A program made the translations under genes and the position numbers. The notes below the pieces were generated by a model. It did not search any database. It saw only the letters and a list, made by a program, of their open reading frames with translations, and was not told the DNA's origin. Positions 2,878 to 19,253 of a DNA stretch of 22,980 bases are shown piece by piece (positions within the stretch are counted from its first letter, which is position 1; every line of letters begins with the position of its first letter). Origin of the DNA: a virus; the IMG/VR virus record IMGVR_UViG_3300024432_000071, positions 1 through 22,980 of that record. The stretch is one strand, 5' to 3'.

Positions 2878-4605
2878 TTATCCCTTATAAAAAACGTTAG
2901 TTATACATTCGACAATACGCGCCATTAACTTATCGTAATTTGAAAGCTCTTGTTTTTCTTCACGTACTGCTTCTAATTCTTGTTTACCTTTTTCTGAAAA
3001 TTCTGACTCTTTAATATCAAGCCCTTCTGGTCTCCCGCTTTCTTCTTCTTCTGGTGTAATTTTATCTGCGTCTGAAATTGGGTCAGTGTCGCTATAAAAC
3101 ATAGGTTTGGTATCAGATTCTTTTGGATCAACAGCGGTTTTTGGTTCTTGTAAAATATCCAACGCCTCTTGATGATTACCTAATATGTCATTCATGTTTG
3201 CGCGTTGATCTTCTAACGCATCAATTTTTCTTAAAACTTTTTCACTGTGCATTGTTGGTTTTTCTTCAAACGATTTAAGACGTTCAGATAATTTATTTAT
3301 TCTTCTTTGAGGTTCTACAATATCTTTTTGTAATTTATTTGCTTTTGCTTTTTCCCCAGCATCTCTTAATTTGCGCGAGCGTCTATTTATAGTGTCAATC
3401 TTTTCTTGATATTTGTTTGTTCGTTCTTCTATAATTTTTCGTTCGTTTTTAATGCTCGTTGTGCGTGATTTTTGTAGTTTGTTAATTAACTCATCTTCTT
3501 CTGGCGTTAACAACATTTCATGTTTTGTTATCGCTGTACCCAATTCTTCAATTATTTCGTTTCTTGGCAAAGTTTTTAATAAACTTTTCTCTAACTCTGT
3601 GCGCATTTCTCTTGGTTTTATTTCGATACGTTCAATACGATTTGCTATTTTAAATGCACTCAATGTTTCATATGGTTTAACTGGTTCTTTAACTTCTTTC
3701 TGTAAATCTTTGATTTTACTATCAATTTTAGCAATTTTTTCTCGAACATCAACAGCACTTGCGCGTACTTCTTCAACTGTTGGGTCACGTCCTGAATTTC
3801 TTTGATCGTTAAATCCTTGGTGAAGTTCAGCACGCGCATTTGGTTCTTCATCATTTATCAAATCGCTTTCAACTTTTCCGGCAGCTTTGCGCATTGATTC
3901 GGAAGTTGCTACTTGAACAGGTGGGGTATATTTCTTGGTGAGGTGCTTTACACCCGCCTTAATTGGTTCGACAATACCTAAATGAATTACGCTGCCCAAA
4001 AGGAAGTTTTGACCTACTTCACGCAATGCGTCCATATAATTATAGTCATCACGAATTGGTGTGCTTTGTGCTAAATAAGCGTGTGAGATAGCCTCTGGTA
4101 CTGTTACAAGTGCCGCTTCAGCACCTGTTAAAAGACTGCGCCCACCTATTGCTGCAAGTCTGCTTTCCCCTAAATGTGCCATAAATCCAGCGGATTTTTC
4201 TCCGATAAAACTAGATAATCCAGCACCTTTAATCGCTACCCCAGCATCAGCAATTAGAGTTTCTACCCCTAGACCACCTGCTGCAACCATTGGCTGACCT
4301 AAAAATCCACCAACTCCACCTACAACTTTTGCAATTGGATGATTAGAATGTTGAAGTACGGTATTATATTGATCCATTATAGTATTGTAAGAATTGATGA
4401 ATTTATCCGCTGCAGGTTTATTATGCGCTTCACCGTAGGCAATCACCCCTTTGGATAATTCATTCATCGCAAAACCCGTATCAAGAGTTTTTTCACCCAT
4501 TGCAACCAACGTGAGTGCTGTATCGGATTTTATATCGTTAAACCCATATTTCTGGTGAAACTCATCGGCTGCAAAGTCTGCTGTAGGGTATATTACATCT
4601 GTCAT
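2878..4605 (-). CDS. Internal virion protein, hydrophobic N-terminal half plus coiled-coil C-terminal half
   Basis: A 575-aa protein. Residues about 93-215 are Gly/Ala-rich and hydrophobic (for example GGVGGFLGQPMVAAGGLG at 96-113 and NFLLGSVIHLGIVEPIKAG at 200-218), consistent with membrane-inserting amphipathic helices. Residues about 283-500 are highly charged Glu/Lys/Arg/Leu sequence with coiled-coil character, and the tail (510-545) is acidic. Its start follows the previous gene's stop after one base (TAATATG) with no clear Shine-Dalgarno, so translation is probably coupled. Four bases separate it from the 851-aa gene. Together these two are close to the size of T7 gp16 (about 1,320 aa), which spans the envelope during DNA ejection. 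No SLT transglycosylase signature is visible. The role is inferred from synteny and composition. Confidence 0.55.
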   Translation of the reverse strand: MTDVIYPTADFAADEFHQKYGFNDIKSDTALTLVAMGEKTLDTGFAMNELSKGVIAYGEAHNKPAADKFINSYNTIMDQYNTVLQHSNHPIAKVVGGVGGFLGQPMVAAGGLGVETLIADAGVAIKGAGLSSFIGEKSAGFMAHLGESRLAAIGGRSLLTGAEAALVTVPEAISHAYLAQSTPIRDDYNYMDALREVGQNFLLGSVIHLGIVEPIKAGVKHLTKKYTPPVQVATSESMRKAAGKVESDLINDEEPNARAELHQGFNDQRNSGRDPTVEEVRASAVDVREKIAKIDSKIKDLQKEVKEPVKPYETLSAFKIANRIERIEIKPREMRTELEKSLLKTLPRNEIIEELGTAITKHEMLLTPEEDELINKLQKSRTTSIKNERKIIEERTNKYQEKIDTINRRSRKLRDAGEKAKANKLQKDIVEPQRRINKLSERLKSFEEKPTMHSEKVLRKIDALEDQRANMNDILGNHQEALDILQEPKTAVDPKESDTKPMFYSDTDPISDADKITPEEEESGRPEGLDIKESEFSEKGKQELEAVREEKQELSNYDKLMARIVECITNVFYKG

Positions 4606-4606
4606 A

Positions 4607-6961
4607 TTACTTTTGCCGTAGTGGGATTAACGGTAAACCTCCTTCAAATCTTCGTCCTAGTGGTGGTGTCTGTCCTGGATTTAAGGTTTTTACTTTTGAA
4701 TCAATTTTCATATCATCCGTATCGAACCCATAAGGTTTACCGGTTTTATTATCAATAATTTTATTACCATCAATTGTTAATTTTATATATCCTTTACCGT
4801 TTGGATTATTTGTCCATGCACCACCCATAAATAAATCACGTTTTTCAAACCATTGGATAAAACCAGTGCGCCTTTGTTCTTGTGTGAAAGCTTTACCTGC
4901 ACCACCAACAATTTTTAAATCAGCTTCATTACGTTTAATTGCCAAATCTTTCTCGCGCATTTTTGCTTTAACGTGATCTGGGTCTACATCAAAAGGTACA
5001 CGATAAGTACCATTAATAACTGGGAAAATTTTAGTTATAATCATATCAACAGCGGCTTTTTCAGCATTATCTCGACTCATACCTTTTTCTGCATATAAAT
5101 ATTTCGTTACATTTGTTACGTCATCCGTTACTTGCTGAATTTGTTTTGCGTTATTCGCTGCACCTGTAGTTAAAGTTGCAATAAAAGGTGCTATTTTAGG
5201 TGCTAAATCTTGATTAATTTGAGTATCAATATTACTTATATTTTTATCTGCAATTAATGCGTGCTTAGATACTTGTTCATCCAAAATACTTCCTGTCTTT
5301 CCTGGCGGTAGAGTCTTACCAGTTGCCGAAGTATGTGCAGCATCCCACGCAGCATTGTAGGTATCAATATTTGATCTATTAGCTGGGTTCATCCACATAT
5401 TCATCATCGTTTGATATCTGGGTGATAAACCGTTATCCATCAAACCATTAAAATAATAATGAAAGGTTTTAGGTTCGCTTGCGCGTTGATCTAATAAAGC
5501 ACCTAAAACTGCATCATTACCTTGGTTTGGGTCGGAAGCCATTTGGTTTATAGTTCGGACTTGCGCGGATGATTGATCATTACGCTCTACACGAATTTTA
5601 TTATCCGGTTGTTTTAAACTCTTTAGATAATTAACTATAGCTTGGTCTTTCGTCATCTTTAATTCGCCATTATCTATTTGTTGGAAAGTATGTTGTAAAG
5701 CTGGTGAATTTTGTGTTTGTGCAACTGGGTCGGCTAAACGTAGAGTTTTCCAATTATCAATTTGTTTTGCAGCATCTAAGTTTGCATTATGAACAGCAAG
5801 CGGTGCATTTTGCGCAACAAGTTCAGGCGTTATAGTTTTTAAATCACTAGATGCTGCGGTTTGTTGATCTATTGAATCATATTGATGCGGTGCAGCCTTC
5901 GACCATGTGTAATGCGCAAGGTCGATTTTTTGTTTTAAATCTTCTGGGTCTTTAGATGCTGACATTACCATTGCAACATTACCTGAATCTGCTTGCCCTC
6001 CGTTTTTTATTTTAAATAATAAATTATCCGTTAGGTTTTTTAAATGTGCTGCGGTCATGTTAGTTTTATCAAATTCGATTTTATCAAGCTGATCGAATTT
6101 ACTCATCATACCCATACGCTCTTTTACATTAAATATTTTATCGTATGATTTATCTTTCATAAAAAATTTACGAAAGTCTTTTCTTGCCGTAGCTATTTTT
6201 CCTTTACCAAGCGCAAATTTATCTGCTTGTTGGGCTAATTGATATTTATGTAATAATCTACCAGTGTTAAATGACTGATCGGCATCTAAAATACCTTTGG
6301 TGAATTGGACTGGTGTTAGAAAACCACCCTTACTTCCATCATGTGCCATTTTTTTAAGCAAAGCATGATCGTGCATTGCTATAGGACCATTGCCTTGAAA
6401 TGCAGCATTTGACATATCAGCTGTTATAGATTCTTTCTTTTCGTGGTACTCATCAAAAGCTATCGCATTGTTTTGCTTATTTACCAAACCTTGTAACTTA
6501 GTTAAGCCAGCATTTGCATGAGCTTGGAGTAAATTTTTAGCGTAAGGTTCATTTGCTTTTGGAATATTCGATAAAAGTCCTTCGGAATACCCCTGCGCGC
6601 GCATTCTAAACTCATCTAACGTTTCATTACCATTAACATTCTTGCTTAATTCTCCGGTTAAATTCTGCATTTTAGTGCCGATATCTGCGGCTAGTGCGTA
6701 TTTATTTGATCTTAAAGCAGCTACGTTATAGATTTCAGCAGCACGACCACCGCCTTTGGCTGGTTGAAAACCTAAGTTCTCGCCTGCTATACCGCCTTGG
6801 GCTACCGCTTGTTGGTCGGCTTTGCGCTGTAGATTCTTATCAACCATATCGCTTAAGTTGCCTGCAACCTTTGCCGCAGCCTCAAAAGATGGAGCCTCAC
6901 TAACTAAGGGACCAGGTTGTACCGTAACTGTCGATTCAAATTGTGGTAATTTTTGCGCCAT
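4607..6961 (-). CDS. Internal virion protein, T7 gp15-like
   Basis: A 784-aa soluble, Ala/Gln/Asn/Lys-rich, mostly helical protein. The start ATG at 6961 has an AAGGA ribosome site. It begins MAQKLPQFESTVTVQPGPLV, a short beta-like leader followed by long helices. There is no signal peptide and no membrane segment. The length is close to T7 gp15 (747 aa), and it lies directly between a gp14-sized protein and the gp16-equivalent pair, the conserved order of the ejected inner-core proteins. In T7, gp15 forms a tube with gp16 across the periplasm for DNA translocation. The assignment rests mainly on order and size; no catalytic motif is recognised. Confidence 0.6.
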   Translation of the reverse strand: MAQKLPQFESTVTVQPGPLVSEAPSFEAAAKVAGNLSDMVDKNLQRKADQQAVAQGGIAGENLGFQPAKGGGRAAEIYNVAALRSNKYALAADIGTKMQNLTGELSKNVNGNETLDEFRMRAQGYSEGLLSNIPKANEPYAKNLLQAHANAGLTKLQGLVNKQNNAIAFDEYHEKKESITADMSNAAFQGNGPIAMHDHALLKKMAHDGSKGGFLTPVQFTKGILDADQSFNTGRLLHKYQLAQQADKFALGKGKIATARKDFRKFFMKDKSYDKIFNVKERMGMMSKFDQLDKIEFDKTNMTAAHLKNLTDNLLFKIKNGGQADSGNVAMVMSASKDPEDLKQKIDLAHYTWSKAAPHQYDSIDQQTAASSDLKTITPELVAQNAPLAVHNANLDAAKQIDNWKTLRLADPVAQTQNSPALQHTFQQIDNGELKMTKDQAIVNYLKSLKQPDNKIRVERNDQSSAQVRTINQMASDPNQGNDAVLGALLDQRASEPKTFHYYFNGLMDNGLSPRYQTMMNMWMNPANRSNIDTYNAAWDAAHTSATGKTLPPGKTGSILDEQVSKHALIADKNISNIDTQINQDLAPKIAPFIATLTTGAANNAKQIQQVTDDVTNVTKYLYAEKGMSRDNAEKAAVDMIITKIFPVINGTYRVPFDVDPDHVKAKMREKDLAIKRNEADLKIVGGAGKAFTQEQRRTGFIQWFEKRDLFMGGAWTNNPNGKGYIKLTIDGNKIIDNKTGKPYGFDTDDMKIDSKVKTLNPGQTPPLGRRFEGGLPLIPLRQK

Positions 6962-10146: not shown

Positions 10147-10179
10147 AAAAAGGGAGGGGGCAAATTGCCCCCTCCCTTT
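10147..10179 (-). terminator. Strong rho-independent terminator after the head-fiber gene
   Basis: A perfect 13-bp GC-rich stem (10149-10161 with 10167-10179, extendable by A-T pairs) closes a tiny loop. On the minus strand it is followed by five U residues (10151-10147). On the plus strand there are only three U, so the signal points leftward. It lies in the 57-base gap between the head-fiber stop and the tail-tube A start. The position corresponds to the T-phi terminator after gene 10 in T7, which raises capsid mRNA over tail mRNA. Confidence 0.93.
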
Positions 10180-10184
10180 AAATA

Positions 10185-12077
10185 TTAAGCAACACGTATT
10201 GCACTAACATAAACAACAGTTGATGGGGAATCAGTTCCGCCACCATCGGTTTCTGTTACACGCAATGTACCCGCAGGTGCAATCTCATGGTATGAATCAT
10301 CAATAGTAATTGCACGACCAATAGTCATGTCAGCATTATTGATATCAATCGCATCCGTGATATTATTTGCTCCGTTAAATACCTGAATGGTATCGCCAGC
10401 GGTACCAAGTCCAGTATTTACTACCCACACATCTATAACTCTGATTTTATGCGTTACAGTCACATCGGTATTTGCCGTTGCGCCACCAGCCGTCGCAATC
10501 CTAAATATCTGTGGTAAACCACCGATAACATTAGCATCAGCAACATCAGCCGCTACCAAACCTGTTAAGGTATTTGGGCTAATCATAGACTCATCAACCG
10601 CACTCGCTTGAATGGTTGTAGCACCCGCATTGTCGATTGCTATATCGCCAGACATAGCTACCGAATTAAATGTGGTTCCATCACCAACTCCAATTTGAGC
10701 ATTGGTTGAGAAGTCAGTAACAACAGCAACGTTAGAATTATCACCTAATAATAGGTTTCCTTCTGTCAATGCTGCCATTTTCGACCATGCTATTGCTGCC
10801 GCTGTGGCAACTTTTGCATTATCAACGGCAAGAGCCGCTAATTTCCCATTATCAATAGCCAAAGCGGCTACGGTCAAAGCTCCGGTATTAGCTAAAGTCG
10901 CATCACCAGATACGGCAACCGAGGCGAAAGTCGTACCATTTCCCACACCAATTTGAGTATCGGTCGAGAAATCAGTTACGACAGCCACGTTTGAGTTATC
11001 ACCTAATAAGATATTGCCTTCGGTAAGCGCAGCTAACTTCGAGTAAGCGATAGCAGCAGCGGTTGCAACTTTGGCATTATCTACTGCTAAAGCAGCAAGT
11101 TTGCCATTGTCGATAGCCAACGCAGCAACAGTTAGCGCACCAGTATTTGCCAACGTGGCATCTCCTGACATCGCAACTGAAGCGAAGGTTGTACCGTTAC
11201 CAACTCCAATCTGAGTATCAGTAGAGAAATCGGTTACAACGGCAACATTGGAATTGTCACCAAGCAATAGATTTCCTTCAGTTAGAGCAGCCATCTTTGT
11301 CCATGCAATTGCCGCAGCAGTTGCCACCTTACTATTGTCGATAGCTAGAGCAGCAATCGTCAAGGCACCGGTGTTGGCTAAAGTAGCGTCACCACTCATA
11401 GCGACAGATGCAAAGGTAGTGCCATTTCCTACGCCGATTTGTGTATCGGTAGAGAAGTCGGTAACTACAGCTACATTCGAGTTATCGCCAAGTAAGATAT
11501 TACCTTCTGTTAACGCAGCTAGTTTTGAATAGGCAATCGCAGCAGAGGCAGAAACCTTGCCATTATCAACAGCTAAGGCAGCTATTGTTAATGCTCCAGT
11601 ATTCGCCAAGGTCGCATCGCCCGACATTGCCACTGAGGCAAAAGTCGTGCCGTCACCAACACCTATTTGCGTGTCAGTTGAAAAATCCGTAACTACGGCG
11701 ACATTAGAAGCATCACCTAATAATAGATTTCCCTCGGTTAACAAAGCCATCTTTGACCATGCGATCAAAGCAGATGCATTAACGTGACTATTCATAATCG
11801 CGCCAGCGGGAATAATGCTTGCATCAATTATCGAAACTACCGTTACAGGTGTAGCATTAGTTTCAGAAGAAACTTGATATATTCCAACGTCATCGGACGC
11901 TTGAATATTAATCAAGTCATATTTACGAAAATTATCACCACCTGCCAAAGTATTAAAATAGGCAGAGGCAACAATCGTTGCTAAAGTTTCATCAATCTTT
12001 AAATAATTGAATATCTGCTGTACGGAATAAGGCATCCCCACATCAGCTTTAGCCCAATAAGTTTTATCAAAAGTCAT
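10185..12077 (-). CDS. Repeat-built head fiber / capsid decoration protein
   Basis: A 630-aa protein with AGGAGA ahead of its start at 12077. Residues 1-109 are a unique N-terminal region. Residues 110-433 are four near-identical repeats of 76, 76, 86 and 86 aa, each starting M/LAALTEGN and containing TDFSTDTQIGVG and SGDATLANTGALT. A fifth, degenerate copy covers 434-493. The C-terminal domain (about 505-630: FRIATAGGATANTDVTVTHK, IDDSYHEIAPAGTLRVTET, ending VYVSAIRVA) resembles domains I know from small decoration proteins encoded beside podovirus capsid genes. The gene sits 11 bases after the capsid gene and before a strong terminator, so it is expressed with the capsid. I therefore favour a head-attached fiber over a tail fiber. 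The two 86-aa repeats carry an extra 10-aa unit (GKLAALAVDN-like). Confidence 0.7.
   Translation of the reverse strand: MTFDKTYWAKADVGMPYSVQQIFNYLKIDETLATIVASAYFNTLAGGDNFRKYDLINIQASDDVGIYQVSSETNATPVTVVSIIDASIIPAGAIMNSHVNASALIAWSKMALLTEGNLLLGDASNVAVVTDFSTDTQIGVGDGTTFASVAMSGDATLANTGALTIAALAVDNGKVSASAAIAYSKLAALTEGNILLGDNSNVAVVTDFSTDTQIGVGNGTTFASVAMSGDATLANTGALTIAALAIDNSKVATAAAIAWTKMAALTEGNLLLGDNSNVAVVTDFSTDTQIGVGNGTTFASVAMSGDATLANTGALTVAALAIDNGKLAALAVDNAKVATAAAIAYSKLAALTEGNILLGDNSNVAVVTDFSTDTQIGVGNGTTFASVAVSGDATLANTGALTVAALAIDNGKLAALAVDNAKVATAAAIAWSKMAALTEGNLLLGDNSNVAVVTDFSTNAQIGVGDGTTFNSVAMSGDIAIDNAGATTIQASAVDESMISPNTLTGLVAADVADANVIGGLPQIFRIATAGGATANTDVTVTHKIRVIDVWVVNTGLGTAGDTIQVFNGANNITDAIDINNADMTIGRAITIDDSYHEIAPAGTLRVTETDGGGTDSPSTVVYVSAIRVA
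10599..11750 (-). repeat. Five tandem coding repeats (76-86 codons), synonymously diverged
   Basis: Repeat units on the minus strand: R1 11750-11523, R2 11522-11295, R3 11294-11037, R4 11036-10779, and a degenerate R5 from 10778 to about 10599. R1-R4 translate to almost the same sequence, yet the DNA differs at most third positions. R3 and R4 have a 30-base insertion that duplicates an internal ten-residue unit. This is an internal gene repeat, not a CRISPR or mobile element. Confidence 0.95.
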
Positions 12078-12088
12078 AATCCTATCTC

Positions 12089-12916
12089 CTATTTGGTTTC
12101 ATCACAGATGATTTTAGTTACACCGCCATTATCTAAAATTGACGAACCTCCGATTGTTCGGCTATCGGCCAGCCATGAGAGTTGATCGTCTGAATACCAA
12201 ACGTTAACGTCTGGGTCCATACGATAAACAGCACCTAAAGCTTCTCTCGTGTATGCAAAACAAGTACGGTCATCACCAGTTTTTGGTAATTTACCATTTG
12301 TGTTTTTGTCACTTATGATGATGAAATTAAAGCCTAAGAAGGTATTAATATCACCTCTGACTAACGCACGGATTGAGTTGTAATCAGCACTTGTAACTTT
12401 TTCAAGATTCAACAAAGCAGTTAGCTGGTTAGGACTCATAACGAGGAAATAACCATCAGGGGCTTCCTCATCCATTAAGTACTCTTTCGCAGCAAGTAAT
12501 TTAGCTAAAGTTAAATTAGTCGTACCAACTGCAATTTCATTGGTTGCAGCAGTAAGTGCAGTGATTTTCCATGCGTCTCGTTGACGACCATAAGCACCCG
12601 CATGAATGTTAGCCCATAACGCTCTTTCAGTTGCGTTAATCAAACTTTCCTCACCTTTATCAATACGGGTTCTTAAGACCTTATCTTGATAAGTAGTAGT
12701 GATTTCAGTGTGATCTAACATCGTTGGTGTGATAGTCGAAGAATATGCGCCACGGTCGATCATCTCGGCATTACCGAGCCTTGGCCATTTATACGCATCG
12801 CCCTTTGCTCCGTGTATTTCTAACGAAGTACCGGATAGTTTTTCTCGTCTTTGATATTCCTGTAAAAAAATATCTCTAAATTGCTGAATCGCAATTGCTA
12901 TGGTTGGATCAGCCAT
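12089..12916 (-). CDS. Major capsid protein
   Basis: A 275-aa protein. The start is placed at ATG 12916 (MADPTIAIAI) because a near-perfect GGAGG lies seven bases upstream; the frame is open to 12949, but that start has no ribosome site. The protein has an N-terminal helix with a charged segment (IFLQEYQRREKL), a central region RTRIDKGEESLINATERALW, a P-domain-like stretch (PDGYFLVMSPNQLTALL) and a C-terminus WLADSRTIGGSSILDNGGVTKI, a pattern typical of phage major capsid proteins of HK97-type fold. It follows the scaffold gene, with two small genes between, and precedes the head fiber. It forms the icosahedral shell. It is smaller than T7 gp10A (345 aa). Confidence 0.85.
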   Translation of the reverse strand: MADPTIAIAIQQFRDIFLQEYQRREKLSGTSLEIHGAKGDAYKWPRLGNAEMIDRGAYSSTITPTMLDHTEITTTYQDKVLRTRIDKGEESLINATERALWANIHAGAYGRQRDAWKITALTAATNEIAVGTTNLTLAKLLAAKEYLMDEEAPDGYFLVMSPNQLTALLNLEKVTSADYNSIRALVRGDINTFLGFNFIIISDKNTNGKLPKTGDDRTCFAYTREALGAVYRMDPDVNVWYSDDQLSWLADSRTIGGSSILDNGGVTKIICDETK

Positions 12917-12998
12917 AATTAACCTCCAAAAATAAATTAAATAATCCATATAAAAATTTATTCTCGTTTGAGGTATGCTCTTTGAATTTTGCTAAGGC

Positions 12999-17414: not shown

Positions 17415-19253
17415 TTAAGTTGAGCCTACATATTCAACATTTAATGTTGCATACTCCATCGTAATTTCTACACCACCACCACTATCGTGTCGTACTCTTA
17501 GATCTAAATCCACTGGTACACTCGGTACATCAATGAGATCATTAAAACCCATATTATTAACGTCTGTGTTAGTTGTAAGTTTTTGTTTGAAGTGTAAATT
17601 GGTTTTTGCTACTCCATCCAAAAACGCCACCCCTTCCCAGACGACATTAGCAAATTCAGAAAGTGCGCAGCATCTTCCTACCACGCGATATTTTCCAGTT
17701 TTGGTTATGGTGATTTTATTATTCGTCTGGTCGCTCGTGCAGTTGGAATTCTCGCCGTTTGTCGTAAATGCTGTAGTCTTGACATAACTCGCGCCAGTCG
17801 CAATCTCCTGTGCCGCAGAACCACCTGTAACATAAATCGAAGCGAAAACTCCAGGTTGGGCTATGTAATGATCGAAATCAAAGTAGGCTTCATCTTCCCA
17901 CCACCTGATATACCCATTATTATTCTCGCCATCAAATCCCAAACGATAGTCAACACCTGCTGCACTATTGCCGATCAAAAGAGTGTTAGACGCGGAAATT
18001 AACCTTAAGTCACCGCCAGAAGTTTCTATTGTGCTGCTATAAATCCTAACGTTATCTATTGCAACTTTGCCGTTTAAACCTGCGGTTAATGTGATATCGT
18101 TGTTATCAGCAGAAGTCAATACAATGGCTGCCTCAGATATTAAATTTAAATCATTACTAAAATCACTACTGATCGTATCGCCGGAAAGAGTTAAGCTATT
18201 TATTCGTACCATTCCAAACGTTCCGCTGGGGGTCAAATAAATACTATTGTTTTCTGGTGTGGTCAAAGTAATGTGAGCAGCAGAAGTAAGAAGCATATTT
18301 CCGCTGGTAGTTATAAGAGTATTTCCATCAAGATTAAGATTATCTACGGTTAAATCAGTTACAGCAGCAACTACACCACCATCAAATGTCACACTTTCGA
18401 TTGTAATATTTTTGCCAGTATAGGCAGTAAGCGTTGTGTCGCTATCGGAAATCGCAACTAACGTTTTACCATCGAAGTCCCAATGACTATTAATTATTAT
18501 ATGATCAGCCGGATTATCTGGGGTTATATTTATATTGTTGCCTGTGCTGGACGATAAAGTACTTCCGTTTAGAGTAAGGTTATCAACTATAACCTGACCG
18601 AAACGCACATCATTACTGGTTGCTAAATACTGATCGGATAAAGGTGTGCCACCTACTGAAGGATAATTTGTTGATTCGATATCAGTCGCCCAAATTTTAT
18701 TTATTCTTATAAGAGTATCCCCAATATCATCACCAAGGTTTGCAGGCTTAAGAAACGGAGTGCCTACTGTGTCTCTATCCCAGGTATTTTCATCTCCGAT
18801 TGCAGCCCAAACCGCAGCACCAGTCGGAATCTGATCGTCTGTACTTGCTCCTGAAATACTTGTAACAATTTCGTTGACTGACAATCCGCCAGTTACAAAT
18901 TGCACTCTATTAACAAATAGATTCGGCATATGAATATTACTTGTAACTGCATCAATATTTAAATCACCGCTTGTAGTTGTAATAAGAGAACCGCCAATAT
19001 TTACTGTAATATCGCCTACCCTTAATCCATCCTCAATATCAAGATCTGTAAACCAACCCTTGGTTATTCGCGCACCAGTCGCGCCGATATCATCCGCTGC
19101 TGTCTGTGGTATTAAATAATTTGGGGTGCCGGTAACTCTTCTAATTTGCAAGGCATTCCATGTAGCCAAAGTTGTCGGTACGTTTAAGTTAGTTGCTGAT
19201 ACATCAACAACAGTCGCAACCTCCATTTGTTCTGGTCTAGTTTTATCTCCCAT
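17415..19253 (-). CDS. Fiber protein with beta-repeats and a C1q-like C-terminal domain
   Basis: A 612-aa protein, ATG 19253 after AAGGA. The N-terminal part has two units of the fiber motif 'DDIG...RI.K.W.TDI' (around residues 53-72 and 171-192). From about 220 to 440 there are short imperfect beta-repeats of the type 'SGNMLLTSAAHITLTTPENN' alternating with 'VDNLNLDGNTL', typical of trimeric beta-helical fibers. The last 130 residues (ATGASYVKTTAFTTNGENSN through TITKTGKYRVVGRCC to YATLNVEYVG) look like a jelly-roll of the C1q/TNF type often found at fiber tips. It is probably a receptor-binding or virion-surface fiber. It lies upstream of the portal rather than after the tail genes. Confidence 0.75.
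   Translation of the reverse strand: MGDKTRPEQMEVATVVDVSATNLNVPTTLATWNALQIRRVTGTPNYLIPQTAADDIGATGARITKGWFTDLDIEDGLRVGDITVNIGGSLITTTSGDLNIDAVTSNIHMPNLFVNRVQFVTGGLSVNEIVTSISGASTDDQIPTGAAVWAAIGDENTWDRDTVGTPFLKPANLGDDIGDTLIRINKIWATDIESTNYPSVGGTPLSDQYLATSNDVRFGQVIVDNLTLNGSTLSSSTGNNINITPDNPADHIIINSHWDFDGKTLVAISDSDTTLTAYTGKNITIESVTFDGGVVAAVTDLTVDNLNLDGNTLITTSGNMLLTSAAHITLTTPENNSIYLTPSGTFGMVRINSLTLSGDTISSDFSNDLNLISEAAIVLTSADNNDITLTAGLNGKVAIDNVRIYSSTIETSGGDLRLISASNTLLIGNSAAGVDYRLGFDGENNNGYIRWWEDEAYFDFDHYIAQPGVFASIYVTGGSAAQEIATGASYVKTTAFTTNGENSNCTSDQTNNKITITKTGKYRVVGRCCALSEFANVVWEGVAFLDGVAKTNLHFKQKLTTNTDVNNMGFNDLIDVPSVPVDLDLRVRHDSGGGVEITMEYATLNVEYVGST

Follow-up and report, generated by a model that had tools for sequence, protein, structure and literature searches.

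The Fiber Gene and Its Genomic Context

The window, that is the whole stretch of 22,980 nucleotides analysed here, is a single contig (IMG/VR record IMGVR_UViG_3300024432_000071) in which terminase small subunit, portal, capsid, tail tube and internal virion proteins can be recognised. The genes of the central block are arranged in the T7-type order portal, scaffold position, major capsid, fiber, tail tube and internal protein, and they match PHROGs for portal (phrog_332), capsid (phrog_3437), tail (phrog_394 and phrog_376) and virion proteins (phrog_418 and phrog_684). By its predicted gene products and their order the phage is a T7-type podovirus. The gene under study, a predicted virion fiber gene (positions 10,185–12,077, minus strand), is an open reading frame for 630 amino acids that matches phrog_2012 (minor tail protein). 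It is placed immediately after the gene of the major capsid protein (12,089–12,949, minus strand; phrog_3437, 2e-40), which is used below as a yardstick, and ahead of a tail-tubular-type gene. The whole protein belongs to the family PF19264 (DUF5907), scoring 29.3 bits in three stretches at a cut-off of 27, while single repeats searched alone in six frames reach 15–17 bits and stay under this cut-off. Its assignment as a putative fiber is based on the family match together with the PHROGs identities of its gene neighbours.

The predicted protein consists of an N-terminal anchor (amino acids 1–102), five tandem repeats (amino acids 103–496) and a C-terminal beta-sandwich (approximately amino acids 500–630). 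The C-terminal domain (10,188–10,580, minus strand) was modelled by AlphaFold2 as a jelly-roll-like beta-sandwich with a pLDDT of 81. With Z scores of 7–8 the model matches cement, fiber and baseplate domains of phages as well as a large number of other beta-sandwiches, so that the predicted likeness to phage cement and fiber domains lies at the level of a common fold only. A prediction for three repeats gave a pLDDT of 39 and is uninformative for the structure of the repeats. Antisense open reading frames across the repeats were set aside on inspection as mirror readings of alanine-rich codons. The window encodes a second fiber-like, repeat-rich protein of 612 amino acids at 17,415–19,253, for which no PHROGs match was obtained. 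Large virion proteins are encoded at 318–2,873 and 2,878–6,961; the one of 851 amino acids alone matches a PHROGs structural family, and those of 575 and 784 amino acids from this region have no PHROGs match.

Near-Identical Repeat Proteins Encoded by Different Codons

All repeats lie on the minus strand and were compared over cores of 70 codons: R1 (11,562–11,771), R2 (11,334–11,543), R3 (11,106–11,315), R4 (10,848–11,057) and R5 (10,590–10,799), the final and diverged copy. R1–R4 are 86–97% identical in protein, differing at 2–10 of the 70 columns. Counted from the unit starts at 11,771, 11,543, 11,315, 11,057 and 10,799, the copies alternate strictly between W..M..L and Y..L..I. The pairing of W with M and of Y with L is present elsewhere across the DUF5907 family, for which reason the alternation is no evidence for avoidance at the DNA level; it suggests coupled packing residues. 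A duplication of dimers, with odd and even copies alternating in W/Y, M/L and L/I, was considered and rejected, as copies of the same type have no extra codon identity (0.355).

Codon identity was scored at shared residues, excluding Met and Trp. Only 192 of 584 sites (33%) carry the same codon over all pairs of R1–R5, and 72 of 241 (30%) do so in adjacent copies, which bears out the claim of an initial sequence-only reading that R1–R4 are nearly the same protein with strongly diverged DNA. Shuffling codons within the repeats predicts 210 ± 10 identities for all pairs (P = 0.037) and 87 ± 7 for adjacent pairs (P = 0.014). If codons are drawn at the frequencies of the phage's remaining genes, 237 ± 15 and 98 ± 8 are expected (P < 3e-4), a larger deficit that arises partly because the repeats draw on a flatter codon set. 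The description of adjacent copies as differing at as many synonymous sites as possible is too strong, since on average 70% of the codons differ compared to 62–64% at random.

The lowest adjacent codon identity in a scan was found in a 26-codon stretch, approximately columns 36–61 (36–62 was also obtained), which corresponds to 11,586–11,663 in R1, 11,358–11,435 in R2, 11,130–11,207 in R3, 10,872–10,949 in R4 and 10,614–10,691 in R5 (minus strand). Of the 24 non-Met residues that R1 and R2 share here, 21 have different codons, as do 20 of 29 in the preceding stretch; both counts are as first reported and were recounted by eye. Adjacent copies share about 0.165 of their codons in these columns compared to 0.30 for non-neighbours, a deficit with P = 0.004–0.005 after correction for position and window size (all positions, nine window sizes), in a test aimed at a stretch that had been picked for looking extreme.

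These data raise the question whether the copies are selected to differ in their codons. DNA shared between neighbours would lead to loss or scrambling of repeats by recombination or slippage, and lineages with mismatched copies would survive. This explanation, which seems unlikely to us on the evidence as a whole, is favoured by the scan and by the deficit relative to the phage's own codon usage, and most directly by fourfold sites. Neighbours are identical at 26 of 132 of these (0.20 versus 0.31 expected; P = 0.0013, better taken as perhaps 0.01 because this class was picked after looking), non-neighbours at 58 of 184 (0.32), and the true order of the copies gives the lowest neighbour identity among all 60 possible orders. 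However, no such effect between neighbours is seen at the twofold sites or at the Leu, Ser and Ile sites of the window copies, and twofold identity is 74 of 143 compared to 77.5 expected. The codon shuffle confirms identity at or slightly under random and does not confirm the part of the first reading that concerns twofold sites. Moreover, exact runs, to which recombination responds, are not significantly shortened: the longest between any copies is 15 nt compared to 18 ± 3.5 nt expected, and the longest runs of adjacent copies sum to 42 compared to 48.5 (P = 0.19). The columns around the conserved repeat core are at random (0.36 versus 0.37), and the array had been selected for study for the very feature that this explanation addresses.

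A Relative Sharing the Distal Fiber Module

When an alignment of the five units was used as the query, one phage was identified, present in two contigs, L215 and L216, and this phage is the sole informative relative. Its capsid and tail-tube-A proteins have no detectable similarity to those of the window, its portal and tail protein B are 32–37% identical, and the N-terminal part of its fiber is only 37% alike. Over a region that starts in the second half of R2 and stops shortly past the gene end (10,148–11,453, minus strand; 3,863–5,168 in L216) the two phages are 82% identical in nucleotides, and this region includes a terminator-like hairpin at approximately 10,147–10,179, downstream of the fiber gene. 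To judge from the nucleotide comparison, the distal fiber module with the hairpin following it is a unit exchanged between two podoviruses. In a further contig (L221, 3,998–4,846) the N- and C-terminal parts of the fiber are the same but there is a single repeat copy, and the copy number thus ranges from 1 (L221) over 4 (L216) to 5 (window).

The two arrays align without gaps, R3 corresponding to r1, R4 to r2 and R5 to r3. Counterparts share codons at 0.50–0.71 (R3–r1 30/60, 0.50; R4–r2 43/63, 0.68; R5 block 38/63, 0.60), compared to 0.27–0.31 for neighbours within a gene (R3–R4 0.29, r1–r2 0.31). Because colinear counterparts are this much more alike than neighbours, the duplications took place before the two fiber genes diverged. 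The copies are saturated at silent sites. The comparison with relatives that the sequence-only reading had called for directly supports the null that it had named, old duplication under tight protein constraint, which accounts for the saturation.

Classical concerted evolution would have homogenised the copies by gene conversion or unequal crossing-over, with silent sites diverging again afterwards. It is in line with the variable copy number and with the protein data described below, in which copies are more alike within a gene than between phage counterparts, its usual sign. At the DNA level the opposite was found over the entire unit, as counterparts at 0.50–0.68 exceed neighbours at 0.29–0.31. 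Furthermore, r1 and r2 retain 15 of the synonymous differences between R3 and R4 exactly, and not one has been swapped. For tracts of more than a few codons this explanation is already largely refuted, and we consider it very improbable.

For selection on codon divergence the relative gives a divided result. Fourfold identity between r1 and r2 is 0.21 compared to 0.34 expected (P = 0.06), which agrees with it, but pooled over adjacent copies of L216 it is at expectation (0.34 versus 0.35). Silent change since the split was faster in the repeats, with 131 of 214 codons identical, than in the C-terminal domain with 94 of 122 (P = 0.004). This difference favours codon divergence and counts against drift alone, although silent change follows a gradient along the fiber gene, which suggests a mosaic history that can explain the difference.

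Replacements Matched Between Copies

While codons are shared between counterparts, the protein is more alike within each gene (R3–R4 93%, r1–r2 96%) than between counterparts (R3–r1 87%, R4–r2 90%). Most of the counterpart difference is explained by five columns at which the phages differ and the internal copies agree: 14 (N/S), 29 (F/V), 30 (S/K), 36 (G/L) and 43 (F/I), reading N-F-S-G-F in the window and S-V-K-L-I in L216. The coincidence of the changed columns alone has P = 2e-4. Several of these replacements involve two or three nucleotide changes in one codon (TCG/AAA, GGT/CTA), and columns 29 and 36 are encoded differently in r1 and r2. Ordinary gene conversion is excluded because the replacements are individually bracketed by synonymous differences retained at columns 11|16, 21|31, 34|39 and 39|45. 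Conversion would require at least four separate tracts, most of them of 3–8 nt. In this comparison the replacements since the split are largely matched among internal copies and conversion tracts of more than a few codons are ruled out, and we conclude from the aligned codons of this one pair, window and L216, that the matched changes arose copy by copy.

At column 36, Leu is the state in the outgroup L221 and in nearly all other relatives, and the 11 other distinct motifs carry Leu or Met. Gly was seen only in the window units, where all five copies have it, and in the last copy of L216 (r3), and may be the derived state. A small residue at column 36 is paired with two Phe (29 and 43), and Leu at that column with Val and Ile, which suggests that these side chains could share in filling a core.

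The Repeats in the DUF5907 Family

DUF5907-like proteins were found in about 200 contigs by alignment-based scans, two on viral contigs and one on bacterial genomes, and many of these contigs share the repeat core A-A-I-A-[WY]-S-K-[LM]. Among viral contigs, the close relatives identified by fiber, capsid and tail protein are L002, which is identical, and L012, whose sequence stops short of the fiber; a phage collection gave no protein match, and DNA matches of 28–39 nt at chance level only.

Saturation is not strange within the family, since of the 196 near-identical repeat pairs compared besides those of the window, 88 cannot be told statistically from random codon choice. Constraint comparable to that of the window units is found in DUF5907 units of other phages, again as the null of old duplication foresees: domains keep 95–97% protein identity between phages, silent sites of more diverged pairs have shed 72–85% of their excess identity, and in L019/L020 the repeat domain is 97% identical in protein compared to 81% for the rest, at a codon identity of 0.52. 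Protein change per silent turnover is 0.012–0.109 in the family (median 0.056). The upper limits for R1–R4 are 0.016–0.10, in the low range of the family, with R2–R3, R2–R4 and R3–R4 at its constrained end. The capsid protein, at 89% protein and 59% codon identity to its nearest relative L012, is less strictly constrained.

Selection on codon divergence gains one point from the survey. At similar protein identity, viral loci (L003–L173) have a much lower median excess codon identity between repeats than genome loci (L174–L213; 0.16 versus 0.41, P = 0.0016). Against it, neighbours in other viral arrays exceed random expectation (0.433 versus 0.398), the lower tail of the family is not enriched at fourfold sites (2 of 160 below z −1.64), and stretches of 30 nt or more that agree exactly between repeats are tolerated in 20 other surveyed genes. 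The control with a long array, a bacterial contig (L188, 476–4,822) encoding a DUF5907-family protein of 1,449 amino acids with 17 consecutive 22-residue repeats, has the ordinary pattern of recent duplication (neighbours 0.535 versus 0.401 random). Codon identity in this array is highest at lags of one and four units, which suggests that both single units and blocks of four were duplicated.

The low identity might also be a matter of ascertainment, because short-read assemblers break or collapse identical tandem repeats and contigs spanning an array would then be the diverged ones. All closely compared sequences are indeed metagenome contigs, and the longest shared run in the window is only the 15 nt given above. 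However, the exact runs assembled in the 20 surveyed genes extend from 30 to 224 nt, contig L002 also contains the window array, the L216 array is the same in both of its contigs, and ascertainment can yield neither sub-random identity nor matched replacements. We regard this explanation as extremely improbable.

Origin and Maintenance of the Array

Taken together, it is likely that the array goes back to old tandem duplications, whose copies have been held alike by selection on the protein while their silent sites drifted to saturation. The array would be an old set of duplications in a virion fiber, in which strong selection keeps every copy matched to the protein unit of its neighbours, probably as a result of consecutive units packing against one another, and in which silent sites are nearly free to drift. 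A purifying-selection model of the ubiquitin type, with the same protein, saturated silent sites and no homogenisation, describes the array. The matched protein changes go beyond what pure conservation foresees; we infer that selection drove them, and packing from unit to unit is the presumed structural reason. Drift would not lead one to expect the fourfold deficit between neighbours, which counts against this explanation by old duplication and protein selection.

Both forms of selection may also have acted at once. Packing would force matched residue changes in every internal copy without exchange of DNA, and neighbours would be driven to different codons since identical tracts would cause loss of repeats, which would amount to a natural codon scrambling. 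We hold this combination to be a doubtful possibility.

The sequence-only reading had put forward selection for synonymous divergence, of which the adjacent fourfold deficit and the extreme copy order still speak in favour, while the silence of the other site classes, the unshortened runs and the overall agreement of L216 with expectation do not.

Comparison With Known Repeat Systems

Whether tandem protein repeats are kept the same by homogenisation of DNA or by selection on each copy is an old dispute. Here the two signals separate, as the protein looks concerted and the histories of the DNA copies stay separate past the split of the fiber genes. If this is confirmed in more relatives, phage fibers would provide a simple and fast-evolving test system for coevolution from repeat to repeat, in which it can also be asked whether silent sites are selected to differ. 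A search of the open-access literature yielded no natural case in which repeats changed alike in protein while their DNA was not homogenised.

The closest case is polyubiquitin, for which purifying selection (Nei et al., 2000) and, in Plasmodium, concerted evolution (PMC10457151) have been put forward. Both systems consist of tandem repeats of the same protein with many synonymous differences, but ubiquitin hardly changes, whereas the fiber repeats have changed alike while their silent sites kept separate histories. Within DUF5907 (PF19264), which includes phage fibers and bacterial surface-type proteins, the window units differ by an inserted T-D-F-S-T-D-T-Q-I-G-V-G-N-G-T-T-F. Copies within a protein have been described to diverge under relaxed or positive selection, faster than orthologous repeats (Persi, Wolf and Koonin, 2016; PMC5120217). 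As in those proteins, every unit of the fiber is conserved between orthologs, but the fiber copies are more alike within the protein than between phages. Engineered repeats with diversified codons, e.g., ABCD for AAV (PMC12365220), likewise encode the same protein repeats by different codons, there by design, and the different codons prevent recombination. Finally, the repeats of the Argiope spider silk AcSp1 (PMC3933166) resemble the phage array as near-identical units of a fiber protein, but they are near-identical in DNA as well (>98%), which was attributed to intragenic concerted evolution.
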